Part shown: piece after piece, positions 1 through 64,000 of the stretch
Layout of the letters: each line of letters begins with the position of its first letter
Numbering within the stretch: the first letter of the stretch is position 1
Assembly (NCBI GenBank): GCA_963969365.1
Contig: OZ017753.1
Location: 2,232,001 to 2,296,000, forward strand
Reading direction: 5' to 3'
Length of the DNA: 64,000 nucleotides
From: Asterochloris sp. CNOR1
Taxonomy: Eukaryota; Chlorophyta; Trebouxiophyceae; Trebouxiales; Trebouxiaceae
Program-made: the position numbers and the translations under genes
Notes under the pieces: model-generated
Database searches by the model: none
The model's input: only the letters and a program-made list of their open reading frames with translations
What the model was told of the DNA's origin: nothing

Positions 1-666
1 TGTAGGAGGCCGCCTCAAGCCCAGCGGGTGGGGTACCAATGCTGATGTAGCAGGCGGGGCCGGGGCCCACCAGTCCGGCAGCCCTCTGGAGCTGCCTCGC
101 ACACCCGCTGCTGGCATCTCTGAGTTGCAGAGGGAGCTGCAGGCTGCCCAGCAGTGCGCACAGGACGTGGCTGGTGCTTGCAGTGCTGACAGCCCAATGC
201 ATGCCTTTGTGCACGGCATGCAGGTAAGCTGCTTTGGCCGCCACTCTTAGCAACCCAGTGCATGCTGTCGCGCCTGGCATGAGCCTCCGGCGGCCAGCAC
301 ACTTGACAGGCCTGCATGCATCTCAGCTCATGGCCAGCATTGCCACACGTGCACAACCTGTGCACATAACAGTATTCCTCAGTCAATAGGGTTTTCCAGG
401 GCCAATGCCTGCTGGTCCTGCAGGCCCTCTTAGCTAACCTTGACCTGAAGGCGCAGGGAATCAGCAGGTTGCTGGCACAGCAGGTGAGCTGCCTTGGGGT
501 GCCACCTGACCTTTGCTTGTGCTTATTTTCAAAGACCTGCCCCACAGCTGCATGTGCTCTGCAGGTCTTGAAGAGTCCAGAGGCAACAGCAGGCGCAGCC
601 ACCAAGGTTGCACTGGCCATGCAGACAGCGGGTAGCCTGGCTGACAGCCTGTGTTCATGGGACTAA
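1..666 (+). CDS. 3' end of an unrecognised gene (three exons, 5' cut by window edge)
   Basis: Three exons join in phase: 1-223 (frame begins at base 2), 400-483 and 565-666, ending in TAA. Donors are CAG|GTAAGC and CAG|GTGAGC; acceptors are TTCCAG and CTGCAG. The visible 136 residues start with a low-complexity Gly/Ala/Ser stretch, then a short helical segment (SELQRELQAAQQCAQDV) and a hydrophobic helix-like run (LLVLQALLANLDLKAQ), ending SLCSWD. The composition suggests a coiled-coil or adaptor C-terminus, but I recognise no family. The first exon edge is echoed in the following intron (252-296). The gene is truncated at base 1, so its length and start are unknown. Confidence 0.55.
190..298 (+). 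repeat. Exon-edge echo in first intron
   Basis: The exon end and donor at about 190-240 (cccaatgcatgcctttgtgc, then ggcatgcag|gtaagc and ggccgcc) is followed at about 252-298 by a diverged copy (cccagtgcatgctgtcgc, ggcatg, then cggcggcc). The copy lies wholly in the intron and is decayed. It is the first of many such cases in the window. Confidence 0.55.
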
Positions 667-825
667 GAACCCTAAAAACCTTGCAAGCTAGTGCATGGTC
701 AGGCACATACTCTTCACGAGCCGAATCTAAAAAGCTGGTAGACACTGGCAAATGGCCATCAACAGCATGCAAAGCATCTCTCATGCGACTCTGCATGTCC
801 ATGACTGATTGTAGACAGTACACAC

Positions 826-2784
826 TTAGCTGCTACGGGGAAACTCCTTCTTGTCGTCCCAGTTCTGGATTTTCAAGTTTTGGGCTGACTCTGAATCAAG
901 ATACCACGTGAGCCTGCCAGACTCGGGGCGCACCAACTGCGCAGGCAGCGACCCTGGCAGGGCCTGCACCTCCAGCACCCGCTGCACGATCTCGGCCTTG
1001 CCGCCCCCAAAGGCCACCACAATGACCTCCTTGGCAGCATTGATGACTGGCATGGTCATTGTGATGCGCTCAGGTGGCGGCTTGGGAGAGTCCTCCACGT
1101 GCAGTACCCACCCCTCAGTGGCAGCTGTCTGGGACTTGTTGGGGAACAGGGAGGCCACGTGGCCGTCAGGACCCAGGCCCAGCAGAATCAGGTCAAAGAC
1201 AGGGAAGCCAGCTGAGTTGCGGGGCAGCACATCCTGGGGCAAGCCCAAGAGCTGCCCATTGTACTCCACTGCTGCATCCTTCACGGGCAAGCCCTCCTTG
1301 ATGGCGTGCACCTGCAGCAGCACAGACAGTTGTAATTGCTGAGCCTGCTGCCATCATCAAGCAGCAGCTGTCTGCAGTGCATCACAGCCGCCCACCTGAT
1401 GAAACAGACCAGTGTGATGACAAGTCAATCAAGTGCGGCAGAGCAGCAACAGTTTCTGGACTGTATTCCAGGTGTGTGCATGTCCCTTGGTTTGGAGCAT
1501 TGCAGGCAGGCCCAAAACAGACTGATGCCCTGCAGCACTTTATGCAGCCCGGCTGCAGTCCATGCACAGCCCACCTGCTGCTGAGGAATGTCCACCTTGC
1601 ACAAGAAAGCCTCTACTGCCCCCTTGTGGGTGCTGTCAGGGTGAGAGTGGGGCACGTTGCGCTCATCCACATAGAAGATGTGCCACTTGCTGTATTCCAC
1701 GCTCTTGCTGCCCACCAGGGCGCTCAGCCCTTTGAGCAGGGACCCGCCAGACAGCACCAGCGTGAAGCTGCCCTTCTCCTTGATCGCGCCAGCGGCTGCC
1801 TGTTGCACAACTCTCCCCAGCCCCTGAGCTCCTGCAGGGATGCCGTGTGTTGTGTGAGACAGGAGTGACTTCTCATCCCTGCTTCTAGAGTGCATGGAGC
1901 TGCACAACCCTGCCCAGGCTGTGAGCACTTGTCTGTTGAGTGAGACGGCAATAGTGTTTGGGCACTGCACAGGGACAAAGGTACGCACCTCAGGGAATCA
2001 GCCTCTGCTCTGTGCAGCAGTAGCAGTGAGCAGGGCAGGAGTGCATCACAAGCAGCAGGTCTGCAAAAGCGATGTGACGGCCATGCCTGGACATTTCATG
2101 CATGCTGGGGTTTGCAATGTCAGCAACAGTCTTCCCTGCCAAGTAGCTGCTTGCATCGATTCATGCTGCTGCAAGTTCTGATGCTCGCAATGCCCTTTCA
2201 CATGCATACCTTCGGCAGCAGCAAAATGGGGCATCTATGCCGTGTAAGCAATTACATTCCTTCATGCCATTCATCCTAAGCAGTCACCTGTATCCGCGCT
2301 GGGGAACTGCACAACATCCGCATCCACCTCTTTGTCGCTGTAGTGGAAGCTGTGAGGGACGCCGCCAAGACCAGGGCCCCTGCTTGTGGACAAGGGTGCT
2401 GTGGCGCCTGCAGAGCATGCAATGTAAGCTTGCTGCAAAACCATTTGCGTGAACGCAGAGGATGAACAATGAAGTGTGACATCACACCTGCAGCAATGCA
2501 TGCCTACCTGAGGGCATCAGATGAGCTCCCATCACTGGTGGCACTCCGTTAGACCACTGGGACTTGGGGATGACGTTAATGCGGACGTTTGCCTGCTGCC
2601 TGCGCTCTGCTGGGAGTACAGACGGGTTGGCGACTGTCTCTTGGTTCTTCTGCAGCTCCTTCTGCTGCACAGGGGCCTCAGCAGTGCCAACAGCCTGACT
2701 TCTCACAAGCACGTGCTGGTTAAGCCTGGTTAGCCTCCTGCTGGCTGCCACTTGTGTTGGAATCTGCACTCTGTTGTTCAGCAT
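826..2784 (-). CDS. PGL: 6-phosphogluconolactonase, plastid-type
   Basis: Hydrolyses 6-phosphogluconolactone to 6-phosphogluconate in the oxidative pentose phosphate pathway. Exons (minus order): 2508-2784, 2288-2407, 1575-1831, 826-1311; they sum to 1140 bases, 379 residues plus stop, with consistent phases. Family marks are FTLVLSGGS near the active-site loop, FYVDERNVPHSHPDS, GLGPDGHVASLFPN, and the VDIPQQQ-VHAIKEGLP join across intron 3. The first ~70 residues (MLNNRVQIPTQVAASRR and onward) are rich in Arg, Ser, Ala and Gln with no acidic residue early, as expected of a chloroplast transit peptide; targeting is inferred. A segment GVPPVMGAHLMPSG follows that I cannot assign. An ATG 16 codons upstream (2832) is an alternative start. 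Confidence 0.93.
1386..1585 (-). repeat. Donor-side echo in PGL intron 3
   Basis: The donor of exon 3 reads (minus) CAGCAG|GTGGGCTGTG near 1567-1580. About 180 bases further into the intron, near 1386-1402, is ATCAGGTGGGCGGCTGTG, a near copy that includes a GT donor. Confidence 0.4.
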
Positions 2785-3029: not shown

Positions 3030-6000
3030 TCAGATGTGGGTCTGCGTGGCTAAGTGGAGCACATCAAAAAAGACTTGAGGGGGCCTCATGTTGTCAGCCC
3101 GGGCACCCTCTATGACAGCGCTGGCATGCAAAACATCTGCCTCATGCCAGGGCTTGCCGATCAGCTGCAGTCCGACAGGGAGGCCTGCACAGCACAGCGC
3201 TGTCAGAGCAGGGCTCCACACCAGTAGCGCCTGGCAAAGCATTCACACGGCAACCGCACGGCGCAATGGTTGTGCTGGAGCAAGGGGCCCAAAGAGCAGC
3301 AGGGCATCTGGCAGCAAGTCATACCGCCTACACAGGCGGGCTGCCTGCTGATGTTGACAAGCGCAGGGGCCCCCACCTGTGGGCTCTGCCAGCCCGATGG
3401 GCACCGAGGCTGCGGGGTGGCCAGTCATGTTGCACAGGAATGTAAAGCGGATCATGGCGCCAGTGACAGGCAGGTTACTCTCCCCTTTGGACAGCACTTC
3501 CTTCCTGCACAGCACAGGGGCTCTGGGGCTCAGCCTTCAAATGCTTCAGAGCAGGGCGCTGCAGGAGCCGTCGGCCTTGTATGGGTCCCTGGAGGGTCAG
3601 GCAGCAAGTGTTTTAAGGGGGGTGGGGGGTGCTATGCCTGCTGCCCTGCCCTGGCAGGCCATTAAGAGGGGCTTCAAATGCTGTGTCTCATTCACAGCCT
3701 GCCAACACACCGCAGCAGGCAGCCGCAAGAGCATGTGCCTCTGCAGCAGCCGTGTTGAGGGTGGGATTCAGCGAGACAGTGCCTGTGCCTGACCTTGCCC
3801 AGCAAGTGCAGGACAGAGCTCACGTGGAGGAATCAGCTAGGGTGAGGGAGTTTGCTTGGGGCACCACCAAAGCTGTCTCAGCTGCACCTGATGGGTGGGG
3901 CTGTGATGCCCAGCGAAGGCAGGACTATGAAGTCCACCTGGTTGAACAGCCTCTCCAGATGGACGATGGCTCGCGTGCGGATCTGCAGGCGTCCACACAA
4001 GCATTAGGACTGCAGCTTTCTGTGCTGAAAGGCTTCTTTCAGCTTAGTGACCAGCGGAAGCCAATACTGTCTGGTCAGCAAGCCATGCGCAGCAAGCGGA
4101 GCAGTCCGCATGCAACAACCATATGCAACCAACCTCACACCTCTCACAATGCCAAAGTGCCTGCGTTGGCCACTTGTAGTACGCAGTCGGGCACAAGCTT
4201 GCTTCCTTTTGGTTCCCACTGCCATGCCCAGCACCCAGGTCCACCTGCTGAGCCTGCGCATATTCTGCTGGCATGACTGCCTGACAGACTTTAAGGTGAC
4301 TTGCTCACAGACTGTCACACAATGATCCAAGCAGCCTGACACTGCTGCTCTCCACTACCTCAAACCTCACCTGCTGAGCCTGCACATACTCTGCTGCCGT
4401 GAACGCCTCAGAGGCTCTCAGGGTAGCCCTTGTCTCTAGTGACAGCTTCCTGCGACTCTTGGCCAGCAGGTGCTTCAGCGAGTTGCAGGCCTCTCCTCCA
4501 AAGGTGGCCAGATGGGCATTCCGGATCAGTTCCAGATCAGGGATGCTGATGTCCACAACCTACATCAGCTGAGGCATTTCTGGGACCGCATCTACAGCCT
4601 GGACCAGGCTCTCAAAGCACTGTGGCGCACTTGACCAAGCTCTGGTCAGACCTTGGCCTTTCTGCAGACAATGTCAAATGCAGGAACCACTGTGATTGCA
4701 GGTATGCAGCAGTCTGGTCCTCAGACAGAAGCTTGTGCCAATCTGATCATGCAGCTGTCTGTCACCACGTTGTGGCAGAGCCTCGAAAACAAGAAACTCA
4801 TGTATCCGCCATCGTCATTCACGGTGTCTGCGGCCTGGTATTATACGCTACCTTTGCAGACTGTGTGGCAGCAGCAACTGAGTGCCCAACCTGCTGGTCA
4901 CTGCCGCTTAAGACTGCAGCCTCACCTGGCTGCAACTGTCTCTCGTGTCCGCAGCTTGGTGCAGTATACCGAGCTTGGCTTGCCAGCATTACTGCTCGCA
5001 GCCTCGCCGAGTGCTGACACCAGGCACTGTGTGACAGCACGAACACTTGCCAGAACGGAAAGGTCACCTGACCACCATTGTCTCTGATGGTGTCCAAAGC
5101 CTGGCGGCAGATGCGCACCACCTCAGGCTCTGCATCCTGGAAGTAGTCCCAGTAGACCCCAAACCGCTTGCCTGCCAGCCTGTCCTTGCTGCCCTGCTGC
5201 CCTGCTGCAGGCAGGGGCCTGGGAATGGCTGTGGGGGCTGGCATCACTGGTGAGCCCTCCATGCCTGCAGGCAGCATGGGTGACAACTGCAGGCGGGGAA
5301 CCAAGGGTGCCCGCAAGCACCAGTGGCATTGCAGGCCCCTGGCTGTCTCACGCTGAATGGTCTGTCCAGTGCGTCAGGCAGGGGAGGCAGGAACTTGGGT
5401 GTGGCTGCAGGTGCAGGCACTACGCTGCCCCTCCAAGGCTTGGTGGCAACCAGCCAGACTGCCTGCTGGCATCTGGACTGGTGCAAGTCTGCGGGGACTT
5501 GGCCAGCAAGCCTGCACCCAGCAGGTGTGCAGGACAGCAGATTGCAGGACAGCTGTTTGCAAGCAGTCCCGCAGTCAACTGCGGGCAGCTAGGCAGGCTA
5601 AGTGCTCCTGCATAAACGGTCAAGGTAACCGCAAAACCTTCGAGGGGCGGTGTCTATCAAGAGCAGGCAACAGAGTGCGCCAGGCTCACCTGCATTGGCT
5701 ATGACTGCATAGACAATCATGGCATCTGCCACGCAGCCAGCCAGGGGTCCCTGGGACGTCACAGACCACATCAGCTGAGGGGTGCCCCGCGTGACATCGC
5801 GCCCAAAGGTGGGTTTGATGCCAAAGATGCCACAGGCCGCTGCCGGGATCCTGATTGAACCTCCTCCGTCGTTGCCTGCAGGAAGGCATACACAGCTGTG
5901 CACAAGGACCTGGCTGGATGCCAGCAGATGACCAAGGAGAATCTGCTGTTGCTGCCTGCAGCAGGGACCACTGTGCCTGGGTGCCCATATGCCCGCCAGG

Positions 6001-12138: not shown

Positions 12139-15100
12139 ATGGCACTGGACAGTGAAGAGGAGGACTCAGACTCCGACGACGAGGGCGTCATGGAAGTGGA
12201 CGAGGAAACTCTAGAGGCCATAGCGGCCGCAGCAGGCTCTGCCAGCGAGGAGGGCTCAGAGGAGGACGCTGGCTCTGCAGGCGAGGCAATCCTGGGGGGG
12301 GTGGGGGGCATGAAGGCGCTTTAGGGGGACTGCGTAGGCCAAAGCGGACTCAGAAAAGGGCCCTGGCTTTGCAGGGGACACCCCAGGGGCTGTGGACGGG
12401 CTGGGTGCTGTGCAAGTTTGGGTCGCATGTGCTCTGGTGAGGGCTGAGAGGATTCTGATCCTGCAGGAGAGGAGGAACAGGCCTCAGGAGGGGAGGAACA
12501 GGCCTCAGGAGGGGAGCAGGATGGGATGGTCTTCTTTCCTCACATGAGGGCCCGGGGGAGGCAGCGCCGGGATCTTGAGCAGTTTGATCGAGTGCGAGAC
12601 CTGGAGGCAGCCCCTCTGGGGACAGATCTGGCTGCCCAGCTCAACCAGGACACTGCTGCTGTCTCGCCCGGCAAGCACGCGCTTCAGGTGGGCCTAGACA
12701 GGCATTTTTGACAGGCAAGGTGCCTCTTGCTTTAGGTGGTGGCTAACTGCACAGTTGCAGCAGCGCTCGCTGTGCAGATCAGGTGTCCTTCACAGCCAGG
12801 GCATGTAAAGGCAAGCGTAAAGAGCAGCCCTCTAGGGTGCTGCCAGACTGGCAAGTCATTGATGACTGCCAGCATTGCCACCTCGCTGTGTGGGTCTGGC
12901 AGTGCAACTGCAGGTAGAGCAGGCCATTGGACATGCAGTGTTGTTGCTTGGGTCGCTGGCCGGCTGCTCAGCTAGATCACTGCGGCCATCTGGCCAGGAA
13001 AGCACTTACTGCAAACAAGGGGCACATTGCCCAAGGAGGCATGCCCAAGTCAGCAGCAGTCCGCGAGGTAGTGACGCAGGCGGTTTGAAACTTACCTGAT
13101 GAAGGCAACATTGCTGCCTCAGCCTGCCAGGCGGGGCAGCAGAGTTGACATGCCCACGTGGCATCCACACGGGCGAGTCTTTGTGCAGCTGAAGATGTGA
13201 GGGACACTGGTATGCTCAACACCTTGCCCTGCGGCCCTAACATGCCCGCACCTGGCCAGCCTGAGACACAGGGTATGCTGAAGGAACTCGGTCCCAGAAG
13301 TCATGAGTACAGTGCACCTGCTGTGCATGGCAGCACAGACAGCGCCTGCACTGCTCTACTGGAGGGTACAGCCTAGCCAGCCCGACTCTCAAGTCACAAA
13401 AGTCGTGCACTAGCTCTGCACAACTGATGGCAACCTTGCCTAGCATGCAGCAAGAAGCCGCATCAGTCCACGCTCAATGTCCCCCAGGTGGTCACAAATA
13501 CAGCCCGTTCGCTGCTGGTTGCATTCAAGGGCCCCACACGCTGTACTGACGCAGCGCCCTCACCCGCCCGGCAGGAGGACACACGCTTTGCCCAGGCAGC
13601 TGGGCCCCCAAAAGTCATGAGCGCAGCGCACCTGCTGCGACGGCGCGAGTGCGGGGGTGCAGGGGCTGACTGCTTTAACCCAGCCCAGCGCAGCCACGTC
13701 AGCAGCTTCCTGTACCGGCCCATGCGCCCTAGCCGCGTGGTTGACCGCATGGCAAGCCGTGCCTACATTGGGCAGTACAGTGCAGAGGGCAACATCTTTG
13801 TGGGTGAGCAACAGCAGCAAGCTTGGCTGTCTGCCATTCCTGGTGGCCGCACCTGCACGCTATGCCAGGGAGCTGCACTGCAAGCTGGTGCCTTGTGATG
13901 TTGGCAGGGAATCTGCAATGTGGGGTAGCTGTGCTCGCTCTTCTGCTTCAGCAGCGGCCTGCTGCATGCTGCAGATGTCACAGCTGGATCCTTCCTGCTC
14001 TGCAAACATGTGCGACTCCGCACACGCCACTTCAACTGCTGCGCTTTACAGGATCCCAAAGTTGACTCCCTCCTGCCCTGCTCTGCACTGCAGCCGCCTT
14101 CCAGCAGGACAAGCGCGTGCGACTGTACAAAACTGACAGCAACTGGTCCCTGCGCAAGGATGTGCGCGCCCGCGGCCTGCGCTGGACCATCACAGACACC
14201 TGCCTCAGCCAGGACCAGAAGTTCTTGCTGTATGCCAGCATCAGCCCCATCGTGCACCTGGTGGGTCCCAGGGGACGCCCTGCCTGTGTCGTGTTCGTGC
14301 AGCTTATGCCATTGCTGGCTTGCCAGCTGCTTCAGCAGCTGGCTGCACATGTCAAGCACGGGCACATCGTCAGTAGTCGAGAGTTACAGACGCAAGCATC
14401 ACCCCCATCGCGTACCTGGTGGGCCCATCCAACAGTGCAGGCTGCGGGGGCGGGGGTTCACCCTGCTGTGCACAGTAGGTGCGAGATGCATGGTGCATTG
14501 CCCATCCCTCAGAAGCTCTAGCTGACGCTCAGCTGAACCCTTCTCCATCCCGGTTACCCTGATGCAGGTCAATGTGGGCTCCAGCTTTGATGCAGTGGAA
14601 TCCATTGCCAATGTGACAGAGATTCACGAGGCGCTGGCATTTGACACGGCCCCTGGCTCAGATCGCCACGGCAACTTTGGCATCTGGTCGCTGCGGTGGG
14701 CAGCAGACGGGCGCGAGATTGTTGCAGGCACGGGAGATGAGTCGCTTGTGATTTTTGATATGGAGCAGCAGAAGGTGGGCCATTGGGCCTGATGTGTTGA
14801 TGCTGTGTGGGTGCTGTGTTGCACTGCCTTCGTGGACAGTGTTATTAGCTGGGGTTTGGTTGCCAGAGCATGCGGGGTGTGCGCTTCTGGGCCACTGGTG
14901 ATCTGTGACCTGGAGCAGCAGAAGGTGGAAGCCTGGGAGCAGGCTCTGTCAGCCTGCCAGGATGGGCATGTTTTGCTGCACAATTTTACAACATGGCAGT
15001 GACTGGTTGCGATGGACCAGGAGACGAAGGCCAGTGCTTTGCAGGCTGCATGAGCGAGTGCAGCCTGGCCCAGCTGCATGCTTGCCATCCCTGGCACTGT

Positions 15101-17883: not shown

Positions 17884-18070
17884 GCCACTGCAGGTCAGCA
17901 TGCTGTGCTGTGTGTGTGGGCCACTGCAGGTCGCGTGCTCTGCTTTGTGTCTGGGGCTGAGCCACGGCAGGTCAGCATGCTGTGCTGTGTGTGTGGGAGC
18001 TGCTGTTGGTGGCAGGGACAGCCTTGTAGGGCTGGGGCCTCAGTCGTTGCAGGTCAGCAGGCTGCTAGTT
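17880..18070 (+). repeat. Imperfect tandem repeat after the WD40 stop codon
   Basis: A unit of roughly 38 bases (ctgagccactgcaggtcagc and on, with gtgctgtgtgtgtggg) starts at the stop codon of the WD40 gene (17880). It recurs partially at about 17920 and almost intact at about 17956, and again partially near 18045. The first copy includes the last coding base triplets, so the repeat is seeded by the exon edge and extends into the 3' flank. Confidence 0.65.
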
Positions 18071-18562: not shown

Positions 18563-20380
18563 TCATGTATCCTGAATCAGCAGCCCTTGAGAACCACAGC
18601 TATAGTTAGATTTGAACTCACACTCCTCCTGCTCGTCATCCATGCCTTCTGGAACAGCACACGAGACAACAGGCTGCTTGCTGTTGTTCTGGCTCTTGTT
18701 GAAGGCTCGGAGCTCTGAATCTGAAAGGATGTAGTCTCTGCAAAGTGGAAGCTTTGCCAGCTTGATGGGGCCCTCAAAAGCAGCCCAACCTGAAGGGGTG
18801 ATGGGCGCCCAGATATAGGGCCCAGGCAGCCAGCGCTGTGTGCTGCCACTGACTGGCTGCTGCACACCGATGCCGCCGACTGACACAGGTGGCGTTACTC
18901 AAAGCATCTCTGGTGCCTATATCAATGGGCCTGCAGGTTTGAAACCCCCTCACATATTGAGCTCTGTATTCCTCTGAGCTGACTTCAGCAGCCAGAGGGG
19001 AGCTGCCAGGTGAAGCAACTTGGAAATAGCAGCCATTTTGCATGGTCATCGGCAAGAAGCGGCCAGTTCTCATGTTGTGCTGGCATGGAGCAGAAACAGG
19101 TTGTTACTGTCACGCGCCTTTCTGCTGAACTCCTGCTCCTGCTCCGCCTGGCCTTGAGCTGCAGTGCATATCAATTGTGTCAGTTGCAGCAGGCTCAACA
19201 TGAGGGCGTCACACAATATGGGTGCAAGCTTTGCTGTTGCCACAATGAGAGACATGTCTGTACAGTGCAGAAGGTCTTGGAGCATTCCCCAGATTGCGAT
19301 CCACTGCCAGGCTGCCAGACAGCTCCCTTAAAGCTGCAGCTCTGCAGACCTGAACTTTATGTCAGGGGCGGTGTCCATCATTTGACATCCCGCAGCAAGC
19401 ACTCAGAAGCCCACCCCACAAACATCCACAGCATCACGTCTTTAGACTTGGTGGAGGCCTATCATGCCACAAAAGGCGTGGCGCCAAAAATGCCCCCTGG
19501 TCAGTGGTGCGCTGGATGAATTCACCATCAAACACCTGGCTCCAAGCAATGGTGCTTGTGCCAGACCATCTCGTCTGCATGCTAGCGAGCAGACTGCCTC
19601 AAGCTAAGGGCAACGGCCTTGCTCAGCACCCACAGTGATGCTGCACCTGGCAGGATTACATACCGCAACCTTTGCGGTGCAGTGAAGATGCCCTCTTCAC
19701 AGATGCTGGGGCCACAGAGTCCTCCATGGGCGTTCAGCTCAGCCAACCAGCTTCTCATGCTGAAGTGAGACGTAGGCTTCACCCACTTGTTGTCAACCCA
19801 ACAGCAATGTCCACCTTGATTCGGTTTCCAGTCAATGCAGGAGTGATGCTGCCTTCCTCTTGACACCTATAAGGCTGTGCACTGATATGCACACACCTGA
19901 ACCTCTGAACACTTGTCAAGCCTTCCTGCAAAGCTGAATATGCGTAATGTACTGCTAGCAAAGTCATGTGCAACAAGCAGGTCTGGTACAAAGCTCAGCA
20001 GTCAGGAGACTCCACAGATGGTCATACAGCCACAGAAGCTGCATTTGGACTAGGTCAAAGAGCAAAGCTGGGGTCACGTGTCAAGTCATGGGTGCCCAGT
20101 CAGAGGGCCCCTGCAGCAGCCTTGCACCCTGGTAGCATCAATCTGCTAAAGGTGCTTCAGTGCTGCTCAGTCAGAGGCCCCTGGCAGCAAAAGCTGCATG
20201 CTGCCGGTCCGTCTGCACCGTGGTGGCGGCAAACTGGCGCAGCTGCTTGACCAGGGTGTCTGTGATGTCAGTCTGGTGCATGGGGGACCCGGAGGGGCCC
20301 AGCATCTTGTAGAAGAGCTCCAGCATTGCCCGTTCATCCACCGAGGGTGCAGTTGCCGCTGTGCAGATGCTCTGAGCCAT
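18563..20380 (-). CDS. Unrecognised gene, partly resolved exons
   Basis: Exon-like open stretches on the minus strand in order: 20210-20380 (MAQSICTAATAPSVDERAML and onward to LRQFAATT, donor GTGCAG), 19664-19864 (DWKPNQGGHCCWVDNKWVKP, then SWLAELNAHGGLCGPSICEE), about 19456-19575 (SQVFDGEFIQRTTDQGAFLA), about 18900-19020 (EEYRAQYVRGFQTCRPIDIG) and the last at 18563-18890 (WLPGPYIWAPITPSGWAAFE, ending GLLIQDT and stop). They have protein-like composition and plausible splice borders, but I could not join all phases. Paired Cys and many Trp hint at an enzyme or secreted-type fold. No family recognised. Confidence 0.45.
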
Positions 20381-20685
20381 CTTCAATCTGCAGGGCAGAT
20401 AGCACCAATGTTCAGCGCCAGACAGTTACAGGGACTGGCAGGGTTGCAGCACCAACACGAGAGGCAGCGCAGGCCAGATGCTGTGCGCCACCTCCAGCCT
20501 GCAGTAGTAGCATGCCACAGTTCTGAAGCCTACATAGCAAGACATGAATTGTGTGCTGCAGATGCTGTGCGCCCTCATGGGCCTGGAAGGCAGCAACAGG
20601 CAGCTCAGCAAGCCCCAGGCCCACTGCTAGGGGGAGTGGCCGCTGTGTAGATGCTGTGCGCCGTCCGCAGCCTTCAGAGCAATGG
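20340..20685 (-). repeat. Multiple echoes of a 5' exon edge
   Basis: The exon start near 20350-20395 (minus: CTGCAGATTGAAGATGGCTC then AGAGCATCTGCACAGCGGC) is echoed upstream three times: about 20475-20505 (GAGGTGGCGCACAGCATCTG), 20560-20585 (GGGCGCACAGCATCTGCAGC) and 20640-20680 (CGGCGCACAGCATCTACACA then GCGGC). All four share SCWSAGAGCATCT-like cores. Confidence 0.65.
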
Positions 20686-21263
20686 GGCGCAGCTTGAAGA
20701 TGAAGAGGCAGTGTGCAGCCTGTTCAGGTGCTCTGCTGCTGCAAGGCAAACATCATTCGACAACGTGCAGCCTGCAGCAGCAAGACAATAGGCAGCCTTG
20801 TTGCTGTACATTTGTGCAAGAGTCGCAAGTACCTCCAGAGAGGTGCTGAAATCGTAGACAACCCACAGCTGCAGCTTTAGGGTGCACCAGCCATGCAGAC
20901 ACACACTGGCCGCTGCTGAAAGACAGCCCTCGGTCCCAGACTACAATCAGTCTTGCGTTGCTGCTGCACCTCATACATGCAGTGACCATAGATTCCCATA
21001 CAGCAGCAGACAGTGCTGTCACAGGCTGTGCTGCCTGTCCCTCAGCAACAATTAGGGAGGGTGCTGTCAAGCACTGCCCTCAGCCCCAGAACTTCCCACT
21101 CGCTTTTAGCGCTGCTGCTGCAGCTCCTGCAAGAGCCCTCAGAACATGCAGAAGGCAACAAATTGCCATAGCTGCGCTCAGCAATGCAGCCCATCTTGCA
21201 TTCCTGCCTTGAGGTGAGGAGTGCTGCCCACGTCAGCACAGCCCACAGATTGGCAGACCCCGC
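20686..21263. other. Intergenic downstream of the dNK gene
   Basis: No gene is supported between the repeats at 20340-20685 and the dNK stop at 21264. The stretch carries a copy of the dNK 3' coding end at 21106-21140. Confidence 0.4.
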
Positions 21264-43855: not shown

Positions 43856-46326
<2,471 letters not shown>

Positions 46327-46877: not shown

Positions 46878-49800
46878 TCATCTCCCATCCTGTGTCTGCA
46901 GCACAAGAGTACAGGCTCTGTTGACATGCTCACATGCCAGCTGCAGTAGCTGAGGCTGTTTGAGTTTTCAAGCCACAATGGTGTGCACTGGGTAGGGGAC
47001 ATGCGACATCTGCATCTCAGAATCAACCCCAGCAGGCTGCCGGAGCAGCCTTGTTCCAAGCACATCCAAAGTACATGCACACCTGTGTCTGTGAGGCTGG
47101 GTACTGCTGCTGGGTGAAGAAGCTTTGCTCATGGAAAGGCTCAGTGTCCTGCACAGCAACACTGCACCATTTTGTGCATTCTTTTGAGTCTGCTGAAGTT
47201 CTCAGGGGTTTTGTGAGGCAAGGCCTGCATGCTGCAAGTCAGGCAGCAGGCCAGCACATGCAGCCCATGATCAAGCATGAAGAGCAAGGAACAACACCTT
47301 ACCTGTGACTTGAAGTCAAAGTTGCCGCCGCCTAAGCTGAAATTGTCCTGGGAAAAGTCTCCCAGAGTCTCAGGCCCCCCGGCCTCTGTGAACTGGCTGC
47401 CAGACTGCGTGAATGGCATGTTGCTCACGCTGTTGGCACGGCTGGCGCCACGCTGCTGCTGGTGCCTGCACGGCGTGACGGCGTGAGGGCTGCCTGCCAA
47501 CAATGCAGGCACAGGCCCAGACCACATGACAAAGCAGGATTATAACTCCAGAGCTTGTAACAACAGCAGCCTCCTGCATCAGTGGGGACCCAGCATGCAA
47601 TGCTATCACTGTAGAGGCTCAGGCCAGACAACATGCTGCAGGCAGGCTTGCTGCTGGACACTGCATGCTTCTCACTGACGGGTACCGCTTGTGGAGCCAG
47701 TGCATGCTCACCGCTTGCCAGGCGCCTCCCGTGGAATGGCATAAGGCTGCTGCGCAAGGGGCATGGCGTAGCCGTTCATGGCTGGTGGCGCAGCGTACTG
47801 TGGCGCAGGCGGTAGCACCTGAGGGAGAAATGCCACTTTCAGGGATGTGGGTGACAAGCATCAGCAGTGCAATGAGCAGGTGCGTCTTGGAGGTATACAG
47901 CCTTCTGGCCCCCTTGCATGCTGTGCGCCAGAAGCAGCACCCACAACCAGACTGCTGATGTGGTAAGTGGCCTGTGTTGACCTGCACTGTTGCAGATGCA
48001 GCACGACACCCAGACTGCTGATGCCGGTAAGCGGCCTGTGTTGACCTCTGCCCAGTCCCACCTGGTGCTGCCCGTTGGTCTCCCGGTGCCCCCTGCGGTC
48101 CAGGTCAGCCGAGGGCAGGGGCCGGAACCTGTTGGAGGCAGCGCCACCCAGTGCAAAGGAGCGGCTATCAAAAACCTGCAGGGAAGCGTTTGGGACCTGC
48201 TATATTGCTGCAAAGACGCATCTCTGGGCCAGCTGCACCCAGCCACTGCCGTCGCCTGCAAGGCTATGAGCAGTAGTGGCCTGCTGTGGCAGAGCAAGGC
48301 ATTTTCAGCTGTTGACTCTTCCAAAACACTGCAGACTATGGCAGAGAAGGTATGCAGTGGATGAGTTGGGGATGGCTTCTGGGGTGACCCTGCCTGGCAA
48401 TGTAGGAGGCTGCAGTAGGAATGGCGCCATCTGAAGGCGTGCAAACAATGGCCGCGAATCATGTTGCCACCAGCAAAGCCAGAGACCTGGACATGCCATC
48501 GCAGGACAGCCCAGGCACACCTTCGAGGGCTTGGCCAGGGGCACCAGGGACTGCTTCAGGTTGGTGAGGGGCCCCTCCACAAGGCACATGTTCTCCTTGT
48601 AGTGGTTCAGCAGACTGCACCACAGGGGCTGCTTGCTCAGCACCTTCGCATTCCCCAGGATGACGATGCCATACTTTGCGCGGGTCAGCGCCACATTCAG
48701 ACGCCTGGGGTCGCTCAGAAACCCAATGCCCTGCAGGACAGGAAGAGATACCTTGACTCAGAGCTGAAAATAGTGAAATCAGCTGTACGGCAGCATTCAG
48801 GGCTGCTGGCAGCAACACAAAATGTGCAGCATCTGTGGCTGCTGGCAGCAACACAAAATGTGCAGCAGTTCCAAGAGGTACTGCAACTGGTGCCATCACA
48901 CATCGTGGTGCAGGAGGCCAGCTGATTTGTCCCTCAGCCAGTCTCAGGCACGGGCAGCCCTGAGCGCATCACAGCTGACAGCTTGCCTTTTCCACCATGT
49001 CAAGCCGGTCACTCAGCAGCACACAACAGGGGCAGGGTGACTTGCCTGGTGTTCGTTGGAGCGGACACAAGACAGGATGATGTAATCCTTTTCCCTCCCT
49101 TGGAAGCTGTCAACGCTGGCCACCTCAATCTCCGTGTACAGCTGCTGGCGCAGTTGCCCATTGCGCAGCATCACCTGCAGGGCAGGAGACAGGTTTCTAT
49201 GAAAAGCTGAGATGATAGAGCTGCGCAACTGCTCTGGCACCAGCCAACCTCTTCGTTATGAGCAACAGAATGATTGTAAGGTCTGCCATGCTCAAGTCAG
49301 GGCCTGCCAGGCCAGGACTTGCTGCGGCGCAAGCTGCTCGGCAGTTGTGGAGATGCATGCAGACATGGGGATGAAAACCCTTGCGGGGAGTGTGCTAGCA
49401 GCCTTGCCTGAACGATGTGTGCCCTCTGGCCCTCATAGGGGGTGATCACACCAATCTGCTCTGGCATGACGCCTGACTTCAGGAATGTTGTGATTACCCG
49501 CTCCACATTCGTTGCCTCTGCAGACACCAATGCCAGCTCAGTTGCCTCATCAGCCTGCTAGTGGCAAAGAGCCATGGGGTGTGCACCCTGCCAGCAAGAC
49601 AGGTTGACATAGCCAATAAAGACGTGCCCAACTCATACAGCCACCAGCAGAGCAGTCTAGCAACAGCATGCTCCTGAAGCTACACCCTGAGCACAAGATC
49701 CATGCCAAATACCTGCAGCTCAACAGCACAATAAGCATTGCACTTTCACTCGACATTGTCCAAGTTGCATATGCCTGTCAGATGGCAATGCTGCCTAAGC

Positions 49801-52800
49801 GCTGTACAGGTGCTGCTGCACACCTGCCCTGTTCAGGTAGGAGGTGCCCGTGGTCGAGATCTCCTCCACGCCCAGCTGCACATAGAACATCATGGGCTTG
49901 TCGGGCTGCGGCCAGGGAAATGTGACCTGGGGCTGCAGCCTCTCTGCCTGAGAGACGCCGTTCTGCAGCGTTCCCTCGTAGAAGCTGTTGCTGGGGAACT
50001 GGCTCAGGGCGGGGTGCATGCGGTACTGGACCTGCAGCACGGCCAGCAAGCGTGTCCTATGTCTGTTTGCTGCAGCTGAAGGACATAAGGCGCTGCCAGT
50101 GGTCAAATACCAGGATCAAGCGACGCAGCGCAGGTAGCTTGACATAAGTGGTGACACGTGCAGATGAACATGAGTAGTGCAGGCCTCAAGAGTCAAGGCA
50201 TTGAGCAGCAAGGCATCAGCAGCAGGAGAGGGACAGCAGCCACAGGCACGGCACCAAGACATGCAACACAGCCAGGATCTGGACAGCTGACTCTGCCATT
50301 TCAGGACCACCAAGCAGAATTTTGGAGCGTGCCCCAAGTCGGACGCCCAGGGTAGCAGCATGGTCGATTGCGTGAGCCGTGCCCACCTGCAGGCGGTGGG
50401 GCTTGATGCCCAGCAGCACAAGGCGCTCAAACATGGACTGGCACAGCCCGGCGCGTGCGGCCTGCTTGTTCATCACCACAGGCCCCAGCTGGCAGTGGTC
50501 CCCCACCAGCACCACCTGCTTGGCGCCCAGCACCAGGGGCAGCAGGCCCTCAGGCTCAGCTGCCTGGGTGCTCTCATCCACCAGCACCTGCAGCAAGGTG
50601 CGGCTAATCAGCTGGTGTTCAAGTGTGAGGTCAGCCTCCTGCTCAGTCGCCTCAATGCGTTCATCCCTCAGCACATGCAGCAGCGCTGCGGTGAGCATGC
50701 CAGAGTACGTGAAAGCAGCTCCACTCAACTGCCTACAAAGGCCACTCAATCAGCACCTGCAGCACTGCTCTCTCAGGAGGCATGTGCTGGGGCTTTGATA
50801 ACACAACTTTCTGGCTCAGCTTCCAGGATGCGTCTTTTGCCAGCACCTGCAGATGCCCAGTGGTGTTGCTGAATAGCAGGCCAGCATGTGTGGACAGACA
50901 AACACGCACAACAAAACCCTAAACCCTTCAAGGGCAGCAGCGCTGGGGTACAGCCCACAGCACATTGACCAGATAGGTCAGCGCCATGCAAGCTCATCAG
51001 CGTGCAATCATAAGACAGCTGAAGGCTGCATGGACTGCCCTTGGCCTCACGCCGCCTTGCTTGCCACCAGAGCACCGCTTGTCACTTGGAAGCCTGCCAC
51101 CCAGCAGCTGCTGCTACCACAGCTCTCTGGCCCCATGAAGGACAGCCAGCCTACCTTGCGAAACCTGAATCCGCTAATCCTTGGGTCCCCTGCCCCCACG
51201 CAGGTGCAGCACACCACGTCTGCAGCCTGAAGGATCTCCTTCTCCACTGCCCGCAGCAGCGTGTTGTAGCGTCGCTCGTCTGCATAACTCAGCTCTCCGA
51301 GCTCGTCCTTCAGCTTCTGCAGCTTCCTCAGATCAGATCTGTCTGGCAGCTCCACATTGCGCACCTGCAGGATCATGCCATTGGACCAGTAAACAGCTGT
51401 GCCCTGCTGGCGTGCTGTACCTTGCTTGGCACCAGCACAGATATCAAAGTAGGGACTAACTCAGTGTAAGTTCCTAACCAAGTACAGCTGTACAGCATGT
51501 GGTGCAGGCATACATGATGCCGGCTCATGCAGGTGGTGCCCTGAAAGTGCAGTGCTCTGCACATCGCCCAGGCCTGCGCTCCCAAAATCTCACCTGGTAG
51601 TGCAGCGTAAGGTGCTCCACGCTATTGCTGATGGCCTCCCGAGATTTGGCTGCCAGGCGGACAACCTTGAGGCCAGTGGAGTGGATCTTCTCAGCCAGGT
51701 GGTCCACTGCCACATTGGAGGGGGCAGCCACCAACACCTGCAGGCACGGACAGGGCCAGCAGTCAGTAAAAGGAGGCTGCCATGGTATGACGACACACCT
51801 GGTGCCAGAAGGGGGGCCTGCTGGAGAGGGGAGGAATGTTACTTAGCAGCACCTCATGTGTGAGGAGGGGCAGGACAGGAGCCGGCAGTGGGTTAGGCAC
51901 TGAGACCAGTGGGGCCTAACGGAGGGAGGCATGCATGGCATGACAATGAGCTGATGCCAATCAGCCAGCAACACATGTGTAGTACTGAACAGGATGGGGC
52001 AGGCAGTCTGCAGAAGGGCCCTTGTGCACTAAGGCTAAGGGAGGAAGTGCAGTGTTAACACTCACAAAAGTGTGATGAGAGACTGCATGTGAGTAACAGC
52101 CCAGAATGATGCAGCACCAGGCTGTCAGGGTAGTACACGCAGCTTGCTGACCGCACAGGGCAGATGCTGTGGTTATATGCAGGGGTTCATCGAAGGGTGG
52201 TAGAAGTCCGGCGTGGTGACAATACAGGAACTGTGCTGCGATGCAGCACCAGGGTGCTCACCTGCCCCTGTCCCTGCTTGGCCAGCTGGTAGACAATGGT
52301 GGCACTGGTCACTGTCTTGCCTGTGCCAGGGGGCCCCTGGATTAGGCTCAAGGGTGACTGCAGCACTGCCTTGACTGCAGCAACCTGCACAGAAAGGGAC
52401 AGCAGTGAGCAGGGACAGCACAACGCAGCGGCCTGATGCCGCAGGCAACCATCTGCCCTTGTGATATGCAGGAATAGGCTTGGCAGCAGAAGGGTGCAAC
52501 TCAAACAATGTTGTCACACCTCCTGCGGAAAGGATACACAGGGCTGAACCGCAACCCCGCCCCAAAGAATAGACTAGCCAGGCACACAGCACCCCAACAA
52601 ACCCCTCAGGAACCTTCGGGACCCCTGGGTTGAGCCCAAGCAGGTCATCACACGCTGAAGTGCTTCAGCATGCACATCCACAACGCGTGCGATCCGGCTG
52701 TCAGGGTGCCTGCTCCGTATTCCACCAAGCCTTGCAAGGCATCTTGGCAAGAGCACCTGGGAATGATTGAGCTCCGGCAGGCCCTCTGCGCTGAAGCGCT

Positions 52801-55800: not shown

Positions 55801-56729
55801 AATCCCACAGTACCTGCAGAGCACAGGACCGCAGCCTCAAGGGCTGGCTGCAGAACGAAAAGTCACTGGCGGCCCCTCGTGTGGCTGCCGAGCTGACACA
55901 GTGCTGAAGGGATCAGCAGGCAAAGGACTGCAAGCGCTTGATGCTTGGGCAGGTTATGATGAATCTCTGAAGGCAGCTCAGAGCAGCGCGGCAAGGCTGC
56001 CATTCTGGCACTCACGCGCAGGCCCACTCTGGCACTTCCTGCATCTTGTCAGGCCGGGCTCCATCCTCAAAGTTCTCATCAAAGTTCAGCTGCAGCAGTA
56101 GCAGGACAGCAGTCAGGACCCAGGCAAGAGTACGTGACAGCAGAGCTCAGCTGCAGCAGAGTTCAAATGCAGTGCAAATCCAATTGGGCAAGATGCATAG
56201 CAAAGCTCAATTGCAAAAGTGCAGTCAGAACCCATGCCAGCCTGCTCGAATGCTGAGCACACCAGTCAGGATGCAGGGAGGGCGACTGACCTCTGATATG
56301 GCGCTGGTCAGGCCACTTGCAGTGGAGCCCTCTTGTGGCTCCAGTGCAGCTGTGGCCTGCAGGAGTTGCATTGGCTAAAATTTCCTGTTAGGCAGACGCA
56401 GCATTCAGGCAGCAGGCAGTCTTGGAGGGACTCACTATGGCAGACGCCTGAATAGCCTCATTGTAAGCAAACTGAGAGGCATTTTCCTGCAGGCAGAACA
56501 CCAGGAAGGCTGAGTATGTGATGGGAGAGTGATGCGTGCTGTCCCAGAAGAGGCTCTGGACACAGAGTCGAACTCCAGAACTCAGCAGCATCACCTGAGT
56601 AAGGCCCTGGAACTGTGAGAGCTCTGGATAGGCTCCAGTGCCCTGAGTGAAGTCCTCTGAGAAACTGTAGTTTGGCTGACTGGCATCCTGCTGCGTGTCC
56701 AAGAAGCTTTGGGTGTGTGCTCCGTTCAT
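46878..56729 (-). CDS. UPF1: UPF1 (RENT1), nonsense-mediated decay RNA helicase
   Basis: ATP-dependent RNA helicase at the centre of nonsense-mediated mRNA decay. Twenty-two exons (minus order): 56595-56729, 56436-56486, 56016-56089, 55702-55813, 55206-55425, 54454-54637, 53798-54021, 53381-53509, 52757-52959, 52262-52384, 51594-51737, 51155-51364, 50387-50587, 49824-50031, 49408-49517, 49046-49174, 48521-48730, 48062-48175, 47712-47818, 47303-47465, 47083-47148, 46878-46940; 3180 bases, 1059 residues, every phase fits. Cys/His domain: [33 protein letters not shown]. Helicase: [20 protein letters not shown] (I), [20 protein letters not shown] (II, DEST), [12 protein letters not shown] (III), [15 protein letters not shown] (IV), [17 protein letters not shown] (V), [17 protein letters not shown] (VI). 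The tail has several SQ/TQ sites, as in phosphorylated UPF1. The exons at 49408 and 49046 end at GC donors. The last two exons are the least certain. Confidence 0.97.
47940..48050 (-). repeat. Direct repeat at UPF1 exon 18/intron 18
   Basis: ccagactgctgatgtggtaa then gtggcctgtgttgacct (about 47947-47985) recurs as ccagactgctgatgccggta then agcggcctgtgttgacct (about 48012-48050), 65 bases apart, next to the donor of exon 48062-48175. Confidence 0.7.
48800..48872 (+). repeat. Perfect 30-base tandem repeat in UPF1 intron 16
   Basis: gctgctggcagcaacacaaa then atgtgcagca occurs at about 48805-48834 and again at 48838-48867. Confidence 0.8.
50911..50930. repeat. Short interstitial plant-type telomere-like motif in UPF1 intron 12
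   Basis: aaaaccctaaaccctt contains about two copies of the CCCTAAA repeat used as telomere by plants and many green algae. It lies inside an intron, not at a chromosome end. Confidence 0.6.
56075..56240 (-). repeat. Acceptor-side echoes before UPF1 exon 3
   Basis: The acceptor of exon 3 (plus strand: caaagttcag|ctgcagcag at 56080-56098, then gacagcagtcaggaccca) is echoed at 56138-56175 (gagctcagctgcagcagagt then tcaaatgcag) and at 56200-56240 (caaagctcaattgcaaaagt then gcagtcagaaccca). Confidence 0.65.
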
Positions 56730-61600: not shown

Positions 61601-64000
61601 CTGTTCGGCTTCCAAGTGCACCTCCTGGAGTTCCTGCAGCTGGACCTGCAAAGCCTCGGCCTCAGCAAGGGCGGACTGGCAGTCCTGCTGGGCTGCCGCC
61701 AGCTGGTCGCGTGCCACTCGGGCCTGCAGCCAGCCATCAGAACACTGGTTTTGCCATACAAGATGCTAAAAGCACTGGCGCCGCAAGATGCACATGACAT
61801 TAGTTCAGGGTGTCACAGATGACAGTGTCAGGATTCAGGTGCTCTGCAGTCCCAGGCTGTGCTTGTGTACAGTACATGCTGCACCCTTGATTTCAGAGCC
61901 CTGAATCAAGTCAAACAAAGTGGAGCCAAGGTGGACCCACTGCGGCTCTAAAGTTGCCGAGCTCCTTGAGGTGCTCATCCTCTAGGGCAGCAGCCTGTGC
62001 CCCAGCAGCGTCCCGCTGGCGCCGTGCACCTGCTGCTGCAGCCTTGTGGCTCATCACAGCACTCTCAGCCAAGTCTAGCTGCGACTGTAGGCCTTCTCTC
62101 AGGGCCAGATCTGTGGCTGCAACAGCAGCTGCAGTGCGCTGCTTCTCCTCAAGAAGCTGCACCTGCACACCAGAGTGTCTGTCAATTTCACACCTGGTGC
62201 GCCCAGCGTGCTGGTGCAATCATAGCAGCCTGGGTCCTTCAGCACGGGACAGCCCATCAGGATTTGACATGCCTGCTGACATGTCAATGCCTGGCTGCTT
62301 TGGAGGAGTGGAGTGAGGCACAACCTGCTGCGTGTGCAGGAGGCACAGGCACCAGGGGCTGTCACCCAGCGCTGAACATCCCAAAGGCTGTCAACTTGGA
62401 TCCCTATGCCAACACATTGAGCAACCCTGCTGGATCACACATTGCTATGTCACCTGACTCTGAGCATTGCTCACCTGCTGCTGCGTTTGAGCGAGTTGGT
62501 CATGGGCCTCCTGCAGCTCATCAACCGCCCCAGCACTGGCGGCACCACCGCGAGAGGTGCCACCTCCCCCAGCAGCGCTGCTGCCCCTGGCGAGGCCTGC
62601 CTGCAGCTGCTGGGTGTGCGCAGTCAGCAGGGCCAGCTGGTTGCGCGTCTCTGCGCCCTCTGCCTCTGCCATGAGGGCTCGGTCCAGGGCATCAGCCGCC
62701 TCCTCCTTGGCATCAGCCAGATGCCCCTGCCACACACACCCCAAGTGCCTGCTTTAGGCACTGTGTATGCTGTCTGTGAGTAGCAGTGGCATGCAAAACA
62801 ACAGCAGCAAGAGAGCAGCATGCTCAAAAGCGATTGACTGGGATGCAGCAAGCTGTGACGCAACCAAGTGACTGGCCTGCTTGTTTCTGTGGTCACTGCA
62901 TGGGTGAGCGCGGCTTGAAGGTTGCACGTGCGCCTGGGTTACAACAGCATGCACCAGCAAGCTGTGACCTCGCCAAACTCCATGTGAACCAGGAGGACGA
63001 GCTACCACACTGTCACAGCAGCACAGTGAGGAACCTGTCACCCTATGAGGCAGCACCTCTTGCCTGAGCTTGGTGCATTGCAGCTTGGCCTGAGGCAGCA
63101 CCTTCTGCTATAGAGGCAAGATGAGCAAAGCAGCCTGAAGCAGCAATCTTTTACTTGTTGTGATGCTGCCGTGGTGCAGCCTGAGGCAGCACCTCTGGCC
63201 TCAGGCTGATATACCACAGCCAGAGGCAGTGCCCATCACCTGAAGCTGCTGCACCTCAGCCTGGACAGCTGCCAGGCGCTCATCCGCATCCTCGAAGGGG
63301 TCGACTCCCTCGCCATCGGTCTGCACAGCAGCCTCTGCACACCCTGCTGCTGGGTGCTGCTGGCTTGCAGGGTCACCGCTGGCTGCTCCATAATCATGTG
63401 CCTCAGCTGAGGCAGCCACGCCAGCTGAGTTACCACTGCCAGTGCCTGCTAGCCCTGTTTGCGCTTCTGCATCTGCCAGGCCCACTGGCTGCACAGAGGC
63501 TGCGTGTCCCTGGCTGGTGGCGCCAGTGGCTTGGCGGCTGCTCTCTGCATGGCTGCCAAGGGCAGAAGCGGCTTCACCTGTACCTCGCCGCTGCCGCTGC
63601 AGAGCCTCCTCCGCTGCGTGGCGCAGACCGATCTCTGCCTGTTGCATGCCCAGGACCAGTCAGAATCCGCCCCGTCCACCAGGCAATGCAGCCGGACGAT
63701 GACACTTGGGAAATTTCTGAGCAAGCCTTGAGTGTGCTGCCCCCCAAGTACGCATTGGGTGGTGCATGCATGCACACCCCCTGCATACGGCAGTGGCAGC
63801 GGCCATTCATGGTGGACATGCGGGGACACAGCACACAGTGGCTTTCAGAACTTCCTCTGTGAGATGTGGCAGGTTTTAGTGAAGCAGATATACCCTCTGC
63901 CATGGCCATTGGCCTCCTGGACTGTCAGGCAAAGAGCCCACCGTGAGCTGTCCCTGCAGCAAGGTCAGGGTCTCCTGGACGCCATGCAACTCCCTGGTCG
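58660..64000 (-). CDS. Long coiled-coil protein with C-terminal membrane anchor (5' end outside window)
   Basis: Exons (minus order): 63942-64000 (continues past edge), 63240-63638, 62475-62726, 61941-62162, 61406-61723, 60778-61185, 60356-60517, 59830-60021, 59478-59640, 58660-59258; most are multiples of three in phase 0. Nearly all is Gln/Ala/Leu/Glu-rich heptad coiled coil, e.g. LQQQLSGVQEQLQEAQSGLQ and QAEADEQLQVAQQQLQEA repeats. The first seen exon has an Ala/Gly/Ser-rich linker. The last exon has a Pro/Ser/Thr-rich region and then GLSSWVLLAWWLAFCS, a probable single membrane helix about 25 residues from the end. The plan resembles tail-anchored golgins, but I cannot name the family. 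The intron after 61406 fits a GC donor (GCCCAG|GCGAGT). Confidence 0.75.
61430..61600 (-). repeat. In-frame tandem repeat in the coiled coil
   Basis: A 57-base (19-codon) unit encoding EADEQLQVAQQQLQEA-like sequence occurs twice almost exactly (about 61455-61500 and 61512-61560), and a third, more diverged copy follows near 61570-61620. It keeps the frame and the heptad spacing only approximately. Confidence 0.7.
63069..63262 (-). repeat. Triple echo of a coiled-coil exon end
   Basis: The exon end at 63240-63258 (minus: GAGGTGCAGCAGCTTCAG|GT) is followed in the intron by copies near 63178-63200 (GAGGTGCTGCCTCAGGCTGC), 63133-63150 (GATTGCTGCTTCAGGCTGC) and 63085-63105 (AGGTGCTGCCTCAGGCCAAG). 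Confidence 0.65.

Follow-up and report, generated by a model that had tools for sequence, protein, structure and literature searches.

Short same-strand copies of exon edges and splice sites in the introns of Asterochloris sp. CNOR1 resemble a known type of local duplication

In the green alga Asterochloris sp. CNOR1, the edges of exons together with their splice sites recur as copies, here termed echoes, in the flanking introns far more often than in either of two controls. At a score of at least 12, the donor edge was matched within its own intron in 32 of 337 confident introns, with 1.1 expected from other introns and 1.6 from the dinucleotide-shuffled own intron, and the acceptor edge in 24 of 337, with 2.7 and 2.9 expected, respectively; at a score of at least 13, an echo is present in 47 of the 337. 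The exon-edge echoes are real, yet they look more like the outcome of a known mutation type than of a special process at exon junctions. We consider it likely that they stem from genome-wide local duplication of the doublet type, which is tolerated in introns and stays visible for longer when one copy is exonic. An excess of local pairs is observed on the same strand only and is spread over exons and introns, the copies being short and the spacings long, with mismatches falling nearly evenly on the codon positions.

The sequence scanned comprised 314 kb of the 56-Mb genome, namely a window of 64 kb (contig OZ017753.1, positions 2,232,001 to 2,296,000), to which all coordinates refer, and five 50-kb blocks; the echo density given here comes from this single eukaryotic genome. 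Early scans covered 264 kb, with 301 of 564 introns rated confident, and after the addition of 50 kb and a refit of the gene models the final set held 337 confident introns of 660, defined by an intron length of 60-700 bp and, on both sides, an exon length of at least 45 and a coding score of at least 4. Gene models were taken from a self-trained predictor, with Pfam or PDB backing for some, and the splice junctions are predictions made without RNA. Overlapping pairs were merged before counting (243 HSPs at a score of at least 14 gave 159 places), and a pair was classed as exon-to-intron if one copy included at least 10 exonic bases and the other lay entirely within an intron.

Within the window, 62 local pairs remained at a score of at least 13 once overlaps were merged, 21 of them exon-to-intron pairs according to this rule, 11 of which have an exonic copy that crosses the junction. 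A sequence-only reading of the window had proposed that exon edges and splice sites recur in the flanking introns of most multi-exon genes, at least ten in number. The recurrence itself was found in PGL, FAAH, the WD40 gene, dNK, UPF1 and a gene labelled DDT, for which a Pfam search gave no family (Table 1). Its extent is smaller than proposed, as pairs occur in 7 of the 14 gene models of the window, corresponding to roughly 8 genes since the models fuse some neighbours. In the sHSP gene, the gene at 25729 and the coiled-coil gene, which had also been listed, a score of at least 13 yields only intron-intron or exon-exon pairs; the pair in the partial gene at 1 consists of two consecutive donors with 4 exonic bases in each, and the predictor's models contain nothing at 18563. 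Donor-edge echoes at a score of at least 12 were present in 8 of 73 window introns and in 24 of 264 introns elsewhere, in agreement with the suggestion that local same-strand duplication with graded similarity is a genome-wide feature.

Table 1. Local same-strand pairs in the window. Strand applies to both copies; spacing in bp.
Gene	Feature copied	Original or span	Strand	Intronic echo	Identical	Spacing	Remark
PGL	exon start (acceptor side)	1804..1829	-	1901..1926	21/26	97	
FAAH/amidase	exon end + donor	4368..4422	-	4242..4296	44/55	126	amidase domain found
WD40 gene	exon segment	13607..13637	+	13293..13323	27/31	314	
WD40 gene	exon end + donor	14234..14268	+	14392..14426	30/35	158	GT kept
WD40 gene	exon end + donor	14745..14778	+	14895..14928	29/34	150	GT kept
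WD40 gene	exon end + donor	16759..16778	+	16843..16862	20/20	84	donor included; 16844-16861 within echo also pairs with 16979-16996 (17/18)
WD40 gene	acceptor + exon start	17621..17653	+	17421..17453	26/33	200	
WD40 gene	stop-codon region, two copies	17873..17997	+		47/48		extends into 3' flank
dNK gene	exon edge	20351..20397	-	20635..20681	36/47	284	
dNK gene	exon edge	21259..21295	-	21095..21131	34/37	164	
dNK	exon end + donor	22655..22708	-	22575..22628	43/54	80	deoxycytidine kinase alignment continues across junction
So-called DDT gene	acceptor + exon start	39798..39828	+	39705..39735	24/31	93	
So-called DDT gene	exon end + donor	42099..42132	+	42226..42259	32/34	127	GT kept; no significant similarity in either flank of the copies (p=0.15, 0.45)
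	intron-internal pair without exon copy	47962..48047	+		21/22	64	same process off junction
UPF1	exon segment	52789..52826	-	52653..52690	29/38	136	
UPF1	exon edge	56077..56098	-	56138..56159	19/22	61	

Direct pairs 25-450 bp apart with a score of at least 16 numbered 146 in the 314 kb, against 2.4 at far offsets. In the 264 kb of the early scans, the corresponding counts were 130 against 0.7 and, at a score of at least 14, 214 against 6.4, and a local excess of inverted pairs was absent from the same 264 kb (2 against 2 and 13 against 10 at the two thresholds, one best pair being kept per centre). Same-strand local pairs cover 4.3% of exon and 4.1% of intron bases, and, in exon interiors (over 45 bp away from a junction), 3.0% of bases. 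When pairs were placed at random, 46.6 intron-intron and 21.2 exon-exon pairs were expected, and 40 and 22, respectively, were observed. Predicted intergenic stretches held 8 pairs with 22.9 expected, a deficit which counts against the explanation preferred here because a uniform process does not predict it.

After gapped extension, the copies span less than 70% of the spacing in 123 of 159 pairs, i.e. the spacer was not duplicated along with them, and the full-period tandem form (copy at least 70% of the spacing) is restricted to the other 36. Accordingly, the tandem duplication envisaged by the sequence-only reading does not, in a strict sense, describe most copies, and a simple decayed full-period tandem model was rejected for most pairs. 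Flank extension was significant at p<0.02 in 22 of 274 flanks, where 5.5 were expected, and some copies are therefore longer than counted. Median copy length was 27 and 31 bp in the exon-intron classes and 22 bp in intron-intron pairs, and median spacing across the main classes was 86-132 bp, with a peak at 60-130 bp. Spacings were divisible by 3 in 15 of 22 exon-exon pairs (binomial P=0.001); those from exon or junction to intron were without frame preference (21 with remainder 0, 19 with remainder 1 and 28 with remainder 2). An apparent dearth of donor-side echoes less than 70 bp apart (1 of 36, the figure for intron pairs being 17 of 49) was dropped after the placement test because junction-intron pairs at spacings of 25-69 number 8, with 2.7 expected. 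Identity of at least 90% was reached by 16 of 55 exon pairs against 18 of 33 intron-intron pairs (Fisher P=0.024; P 0.009-0.13 over thresholds). This greater divergence of exon pairs counts against the preferred explanation, as the decay simulation described below gives exon-intron and intron-intron pairs the same identity spread.

It is likely that short same-strand copies of nearby sequence, mostly of about 15-55 bp, accumulate along the whole of genes rather than chiefly at junctions, usually at a distance of 25-300 bp. The copying itself would represent imperfect break repair or template slippage, with the fill-in of staggered ends with filler, or strand-annealing synthesis on a nearby template, as candidate routes. 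Copies landing in introns would be neutral and persist, and those surviving within exons would mostly be the ones that preserve the reading frame. An exon-edge copy, in turn, is presumably held by selection, decay being limited to its intronic partner. Because only one copy would then decay, a pair with an exon-edge copy should stay recognisable over roughly double the time span of a purely intronic pair, and this slower loss of visibility would account for most or all of the conspicuousness of exon-edge echoes.

Alternatively, duplication might be targeted to exon-intron boundaries, for instance through breaks that accompany transcription or splicing or through microhomology (CAG/GTG) at the splice sites, thereby lengthening introns and seeding decoys. 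Junction-spanning (junction-intron) pairs numbered 32, compared to 13.7 under random placement, a 2.3-fold excess and a count reached in 0 of 400 placements; among pairs with at least 90% identity and a spacing of at least 70 there were 6 of them with 2.2 expected (P=0.028) and 5 other junction pairs with 2.1 expected (P=0.068). In addition, 6.2% of true donors and 6.4% of acceptors are covered by pairs, compared to 4.4% of random intron points, with exon interiors (3.0%) below that level, and many echoes stop 0-9 bp beyond the donor; coverage was 6.7% for cryptic intronic donors, which are partly echoes themselves, and 7.9% for intronic TGCAG sites. However, when equal 60-bp zones were compared in the 240 confident introns that were 200 bp or longer, exon and intron copies stood at 56:34, 45:30, 33:25, 25:21 and 20:13 for scores of at least 13, 14, 15, 16 and 18. 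The resulting excess of the exon-edge zone, 1.2-1.65-fold with four of five confidence intervals including 1, is within or under the ratio of 1.55-1.90 predicted by a simulation of neutral decay with a conserved exon copy (eight settings). Given a visibility factor of 1.55, the junction-spanning excess has a P of 0.017, and given a factor of 1.9 a P of 0.14. Off the junctions, 36 exon-intron pairs were observed with 33.4 expected, and the shortness of the copies alone restricts their reach into the intron. Our judgement rests on total ratios because the simulated visibility ratio does not vary with identity; a pattern of equality among young pairs and excess among old ones is, for this reason, not treated as diagnostic of visibility. 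The earlier claim that duplication acts across exon-intron junctions therefore retains the number of junction-spanning pairs in its favor and is weakened by the modest zone excess. A junction-directed process is not well supported: targeting to the boundaries appears unlikely, and slightly more doubtful still is that junctions are true hotspots of non-tandem same-strand copying tied to transcription or splicing, from which introns continually gain copies of exon edges and splice sites.

As the sequence-only reading anticipated, the copying seeds potential decoy donors, since GT is kept in 15 of the 21 donor echoes that extend to the junction; AG is kept in 11 of 19 acceptor echoes, and for 12 of the 15 GT-keeping echoes the score clearly exceeds 3.5, the 90th percentile for GT sites within introns. 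It might be speculated that echoes are functional, serving under selection as alternative ends of exons or as decoy splice sites with a regulatory role. Against this, echo mismatch rates are nearly even over codon positions (0.153, 0.201 and 0.219; slight difference, P=0.045), by which translated alternative exons were rejected, and the spacings do not favor a frame; retention of GT and AG is, by our estimate, about that expected at 80-85% identity and is biased by the procedure used to find echoes. We regard a functional role as improbable; the echoes are more readily taken as neutral, their splice sites probably being mostly unused.

That the echoes are an artefact of common CTGCAG/GCAGC-rich composition or of wrong gene models is very improbable. 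Introns do end in TGCAG, a motif often lying inside pairs (see above), and the gene models lack RNA support, but other or shuffled introns give 1.1-2.9 expected matches against 24-32 observed, and the far-offset control is independent of any gene model. Because own-intron matches exceed these controls, shared CTGCAG-rich composition alone, raised as a caveat in the earlier reading, does not explain the signal, and the composition artefact was rejected by all three controls. It is hardly credible that introns originated when exon segments bearing AGGT were duplicated in tandem (intron gain of the Rogers type), with the echoes as remnants, for although exon-edge copies sit in introns and the model is documented elsewhere (PMC3443670, PMC2891723), donor and acceptor compared in register, offset by the length of the intron, are no more similar than background (mean 4.91 versus 4.92, n=337; scores of at least 8 in 13 of 337 against 8, and of at least 9 in 2 against 1). 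With regard to introners, one 240-base echo-bearing stretch (1 of the 21 window cases) matched only itself in a search that skips very common words.

Doublets, reportedly described by Thomas et al. in 2004, are said to be short local same-strand copies above chance that lie apart from their template, and to be known chiefly from mammals and in the form of exact matches. The pairs reported here share the short, close-range, same-strand excess (146 against 2.4) and the unduplicated spacer (123 of 159), and differ in the spacing peak at 60-130 bp, in being mostly diverged and in having exon edges as conserved reference copies. Small tandem duplications are reported to arise from break-end fill-in (Vaughn and Bennetzen, 2014), and tandem duplication near exon-intron boundaries is said to lead to intron gain or alternative splicing (Zhuo et al., 2007). 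As opposed to tandem-duplication intron gain, the in-register AGGT signature is missing here, and existing introns seem to be recipients of copies rather than products. Repair-mediated duplications (Pace et al. 2009, PMC2671141) capture proximal DNA, including exons, UTRs and intron splice sites, and no constraint was evident for either of the two full-exon copies tested; they were detected via interrupted transposons, are at least 50 bp long (a cut-off of the method) with a proximal median of 147 bp, lie less than 3 kb apart in 66% of cases (average 1.2 kb) and include an opposite-strand case. Similarly, donor lies near acceptor in our pairs, which differ from that portrayal in being a median of 22-31 bp long, 86-132 bp apart and on the same strand only; medians of 27, 31 and 22 bp fall short of a Pace-type length of at least 50 bp with a median of about 150 bp. 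Schimmel et al. 2021 (PMC8355091) name small tandem duplications as the most frequent type of short insertion in human DNA; relative to such break-end fill-in products, 36 of our 159 pairs are full-period, and in 123 the copy is far shorter than the spacing. Tandem duplication at or near exon-intron borders can give rise to intron gain or alternative splicing (PMC3443670, PMC2891723, PMC2812944), and border repeats likewise can make splice sites. Among the matches listed, judged by title and the start of the abstract and mostly outside subscription journals, there was no account of exon-edge echoes as a genome-wide habit.

On the neutral reading, the present case illustrates that conserved originals readily make a more uniform process appear junction-directed. 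If that reading is true, exon edges would act as built-in yardsticks: the exon copy barely changes, and each echo could therefore date a local duplication within an intron from one genome. It would then be possible to measure how fast local duplications arise and introns grow without recourse to relatives, from a record that is present in about one seventh of the confident introns (47 of 337).

The exon-edge echoes, diverged local copies of an exon edge and its splice site within the adjacent intron, are real, occur sample-wide across the genome (56.4 Mb in 21 contigs) and lie well above chance. Gene structures came from a small gene-finding model trained on the window and the host blocks; the genes predicted by this self-trained model have many short exons and introns mostly ending in TGCAG. 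The sample comprised 660 predicted introns in the window and five 50-kb blocks, 337 of them confident. When exon edges were aligned with their own, other and shuffled introns, 32 of the 337 donor edges matched their own intron at a score of at least 12, with 1.1 expected from other introns and 1.6 from shuffled own introns, and similarly 24 of 337 acceptor edges did so (expected 2.7 and 2.9). At a score of at least 13 on either side, 47/337 introns were positive, where about 1.3 would be expected for both sides together. The recurrence of exon edges in their own introns, as proposed by the sequence-only reading, thus clearly exceeds chance. For exonic sequence lying 60-110 bases in from the edge, an earlier run on 301 introns gave matches at a score of at least 12 in 3/234 and 3/237 cases (expected 0.8 and 1.4). 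Donor-side frequencies at this score agree between the window (8/73) and the other blocks (24/264).

Among the 62 window pairs with a score of at least 13, 21 link exon to intron, 11 of which cross the junction. Echoes comparable to the exon-end case tabulated below are found in the FAAH, WD40, dNK and UPF1 genes. The earlier proposal that most multi-exon genes carry echoes was not confirmed: exon-to-intron pairs reside within 7 of 14 gene models, and at a score of at least 13 no exon-edge echo was found in the sHSP gene, the gene at 25729 or the coiled-coil gene, for which they had been claimed. Eight of ten submitted window proteins (from 15 predicted) matched Pfam families, namely amidase with 6-phosphogluconolactonase, WD40, dNK, SUMO-like, Ras (twice), UPF1 and HSP20; no family was found in the other two, including the gene previously named DDT. 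An alignment to a solved structure spans the echo-bearing junction of dNK, and a Rab11-like protein is also covered by such an alignment.

Local copies and arrays in the window
Feature	Position	Copies	Remarks
Exon end with donor	42099-42132	echo 42226-42259, 127 bases further	32/34 bases equal (read by eye)
WD40 gene, stop-codon region repeated as ragged array in 3' flank	17873-18270	17873-17920 vs 17950-17997	47/48; weaker copies beyond
Coiled-coil gene, exon-internal arrays	60888-61602		periods of 72 and 63 bases; 63 bases = 21 codons = three heptads

The process producing the echoes appears to be of an ordinary kind. Independently of gene models, 146 same-strand pairs 25-450 bp apart were found at a score of at least 16, compared to 2.4 from far offsets, and inverted local pairs showed no excess in the 264 kb scanned. 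Pairs are densest at spacings under 25 bp, thin out to a dip at 45-60 bp, peak again at 80-100 bp and have nearly vanished by 500 bp. Across the window and the five blocks, local-pair spacing is bimodal (<45 bp and about 80-100 bp). Of the 159 places, just 36 resemble full-period tandem copies, the copy being short relative to the spacing in the other 123; pairs with at least 95% identity are full-period in 5 cases and not in 15. The flanks of the exon-end pair in the table show no significant similarity on either side (p=0.15, 0.45). Overall, flank extension at p<0.02 occurred in 22/274 cases, compared to 5.5 expected, indicating that the length of some of the 123 short copies is underestimated.

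The best fit among known kinds is to doublets and repair-mediated duplications. Thomas et al. 2004 reportedly gave the doublets their name. In PMC2671141, these doublets are named, and repair-mediated duplications are reported to copy exons and splice sites, usually from nearby. Further sources report that simple or complex tandem copies make up most of the short insertions of flies and primates (PMC2374710), that human exon-intron boundary repeats alter splicing (PMC2812944), and that introns are gained through tandem duplication (PMC3443670, PMC2891723). The in-register similarity that marks this last model is, in contrast, absent from the introns sampled here. Among the literature matches listed, judged by title and abstract start, none describes exon-edge echoes as such.

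The sequence-only reading had placed the duplications across exon-intron junctions; our analysis suggests that the process is mostly not directed there, and that the apparent link to exon edges largely reflects which copies stay recognisable, since under uniform local duplication a conserved exon copy would keep exon-intron pairs visible for longer. The share of bases lying in pairs is 4.3% for exons and 4.1% for introns. Comparing equal 60-bp zones, the ratio of exon edge to intron was 1.65 at a score of at least 13 (95% interval 1.06-2.60) and 1.50, 1.32, 1.19 and 1.54 at scores 14, 15, 16 and 18, all four intervals including 1. These values lie within or below the 1.55-1.90 obtained in eight simulation settings with uniform ages and an exon copy that was conserved or slowly changing. 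Nevertheless, duplication may favour junctions by as much as about 1.5-fold, as several results oppose an explanation by recognisability. Divergence is higher in exon-intron than in intron pairs, a difference not expected from the simulation. Predicted intergenic stretches hold 8 pairs versus 22.9 by random placement, about a third. Junction-intron pairs number 32 versus 13.7 by random placement, an excess with P=0.017 or 0.14 after correction for a 1.55-fold or 1.9-fold visibility effect, and coverage reaches 6.2% at true donors and 6.4% at acceptors, compared to 4.4% at random intron points and 3.0% at exon-interior points. In confident introns, 1/36 donor-side echoes lay closer than 70 bp, compared to 17/49 intron pairs; this scarcity was not seen in the placement test on all predicted junctions (8 versus 2.7).

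Mismatch rates by codon position are nearly even (0.153, 0.201 and 0.219; P=0.045). The spacing of exon-exon local pairs in the window and five blocks is a multiple of three in 15/22, whereas exon-echo spacings show no clear frame preference (21, 19 and 28); thus, exons, but not introns, appear to filter duplications by frame. GT is kept in 15/21 donor echoes that reach the junction and AG in 11/19 acceptor echoes, by our own estimate roughly the level given by echo identity. Judged from sequence, the splice sites within the echoes are potential decoys.
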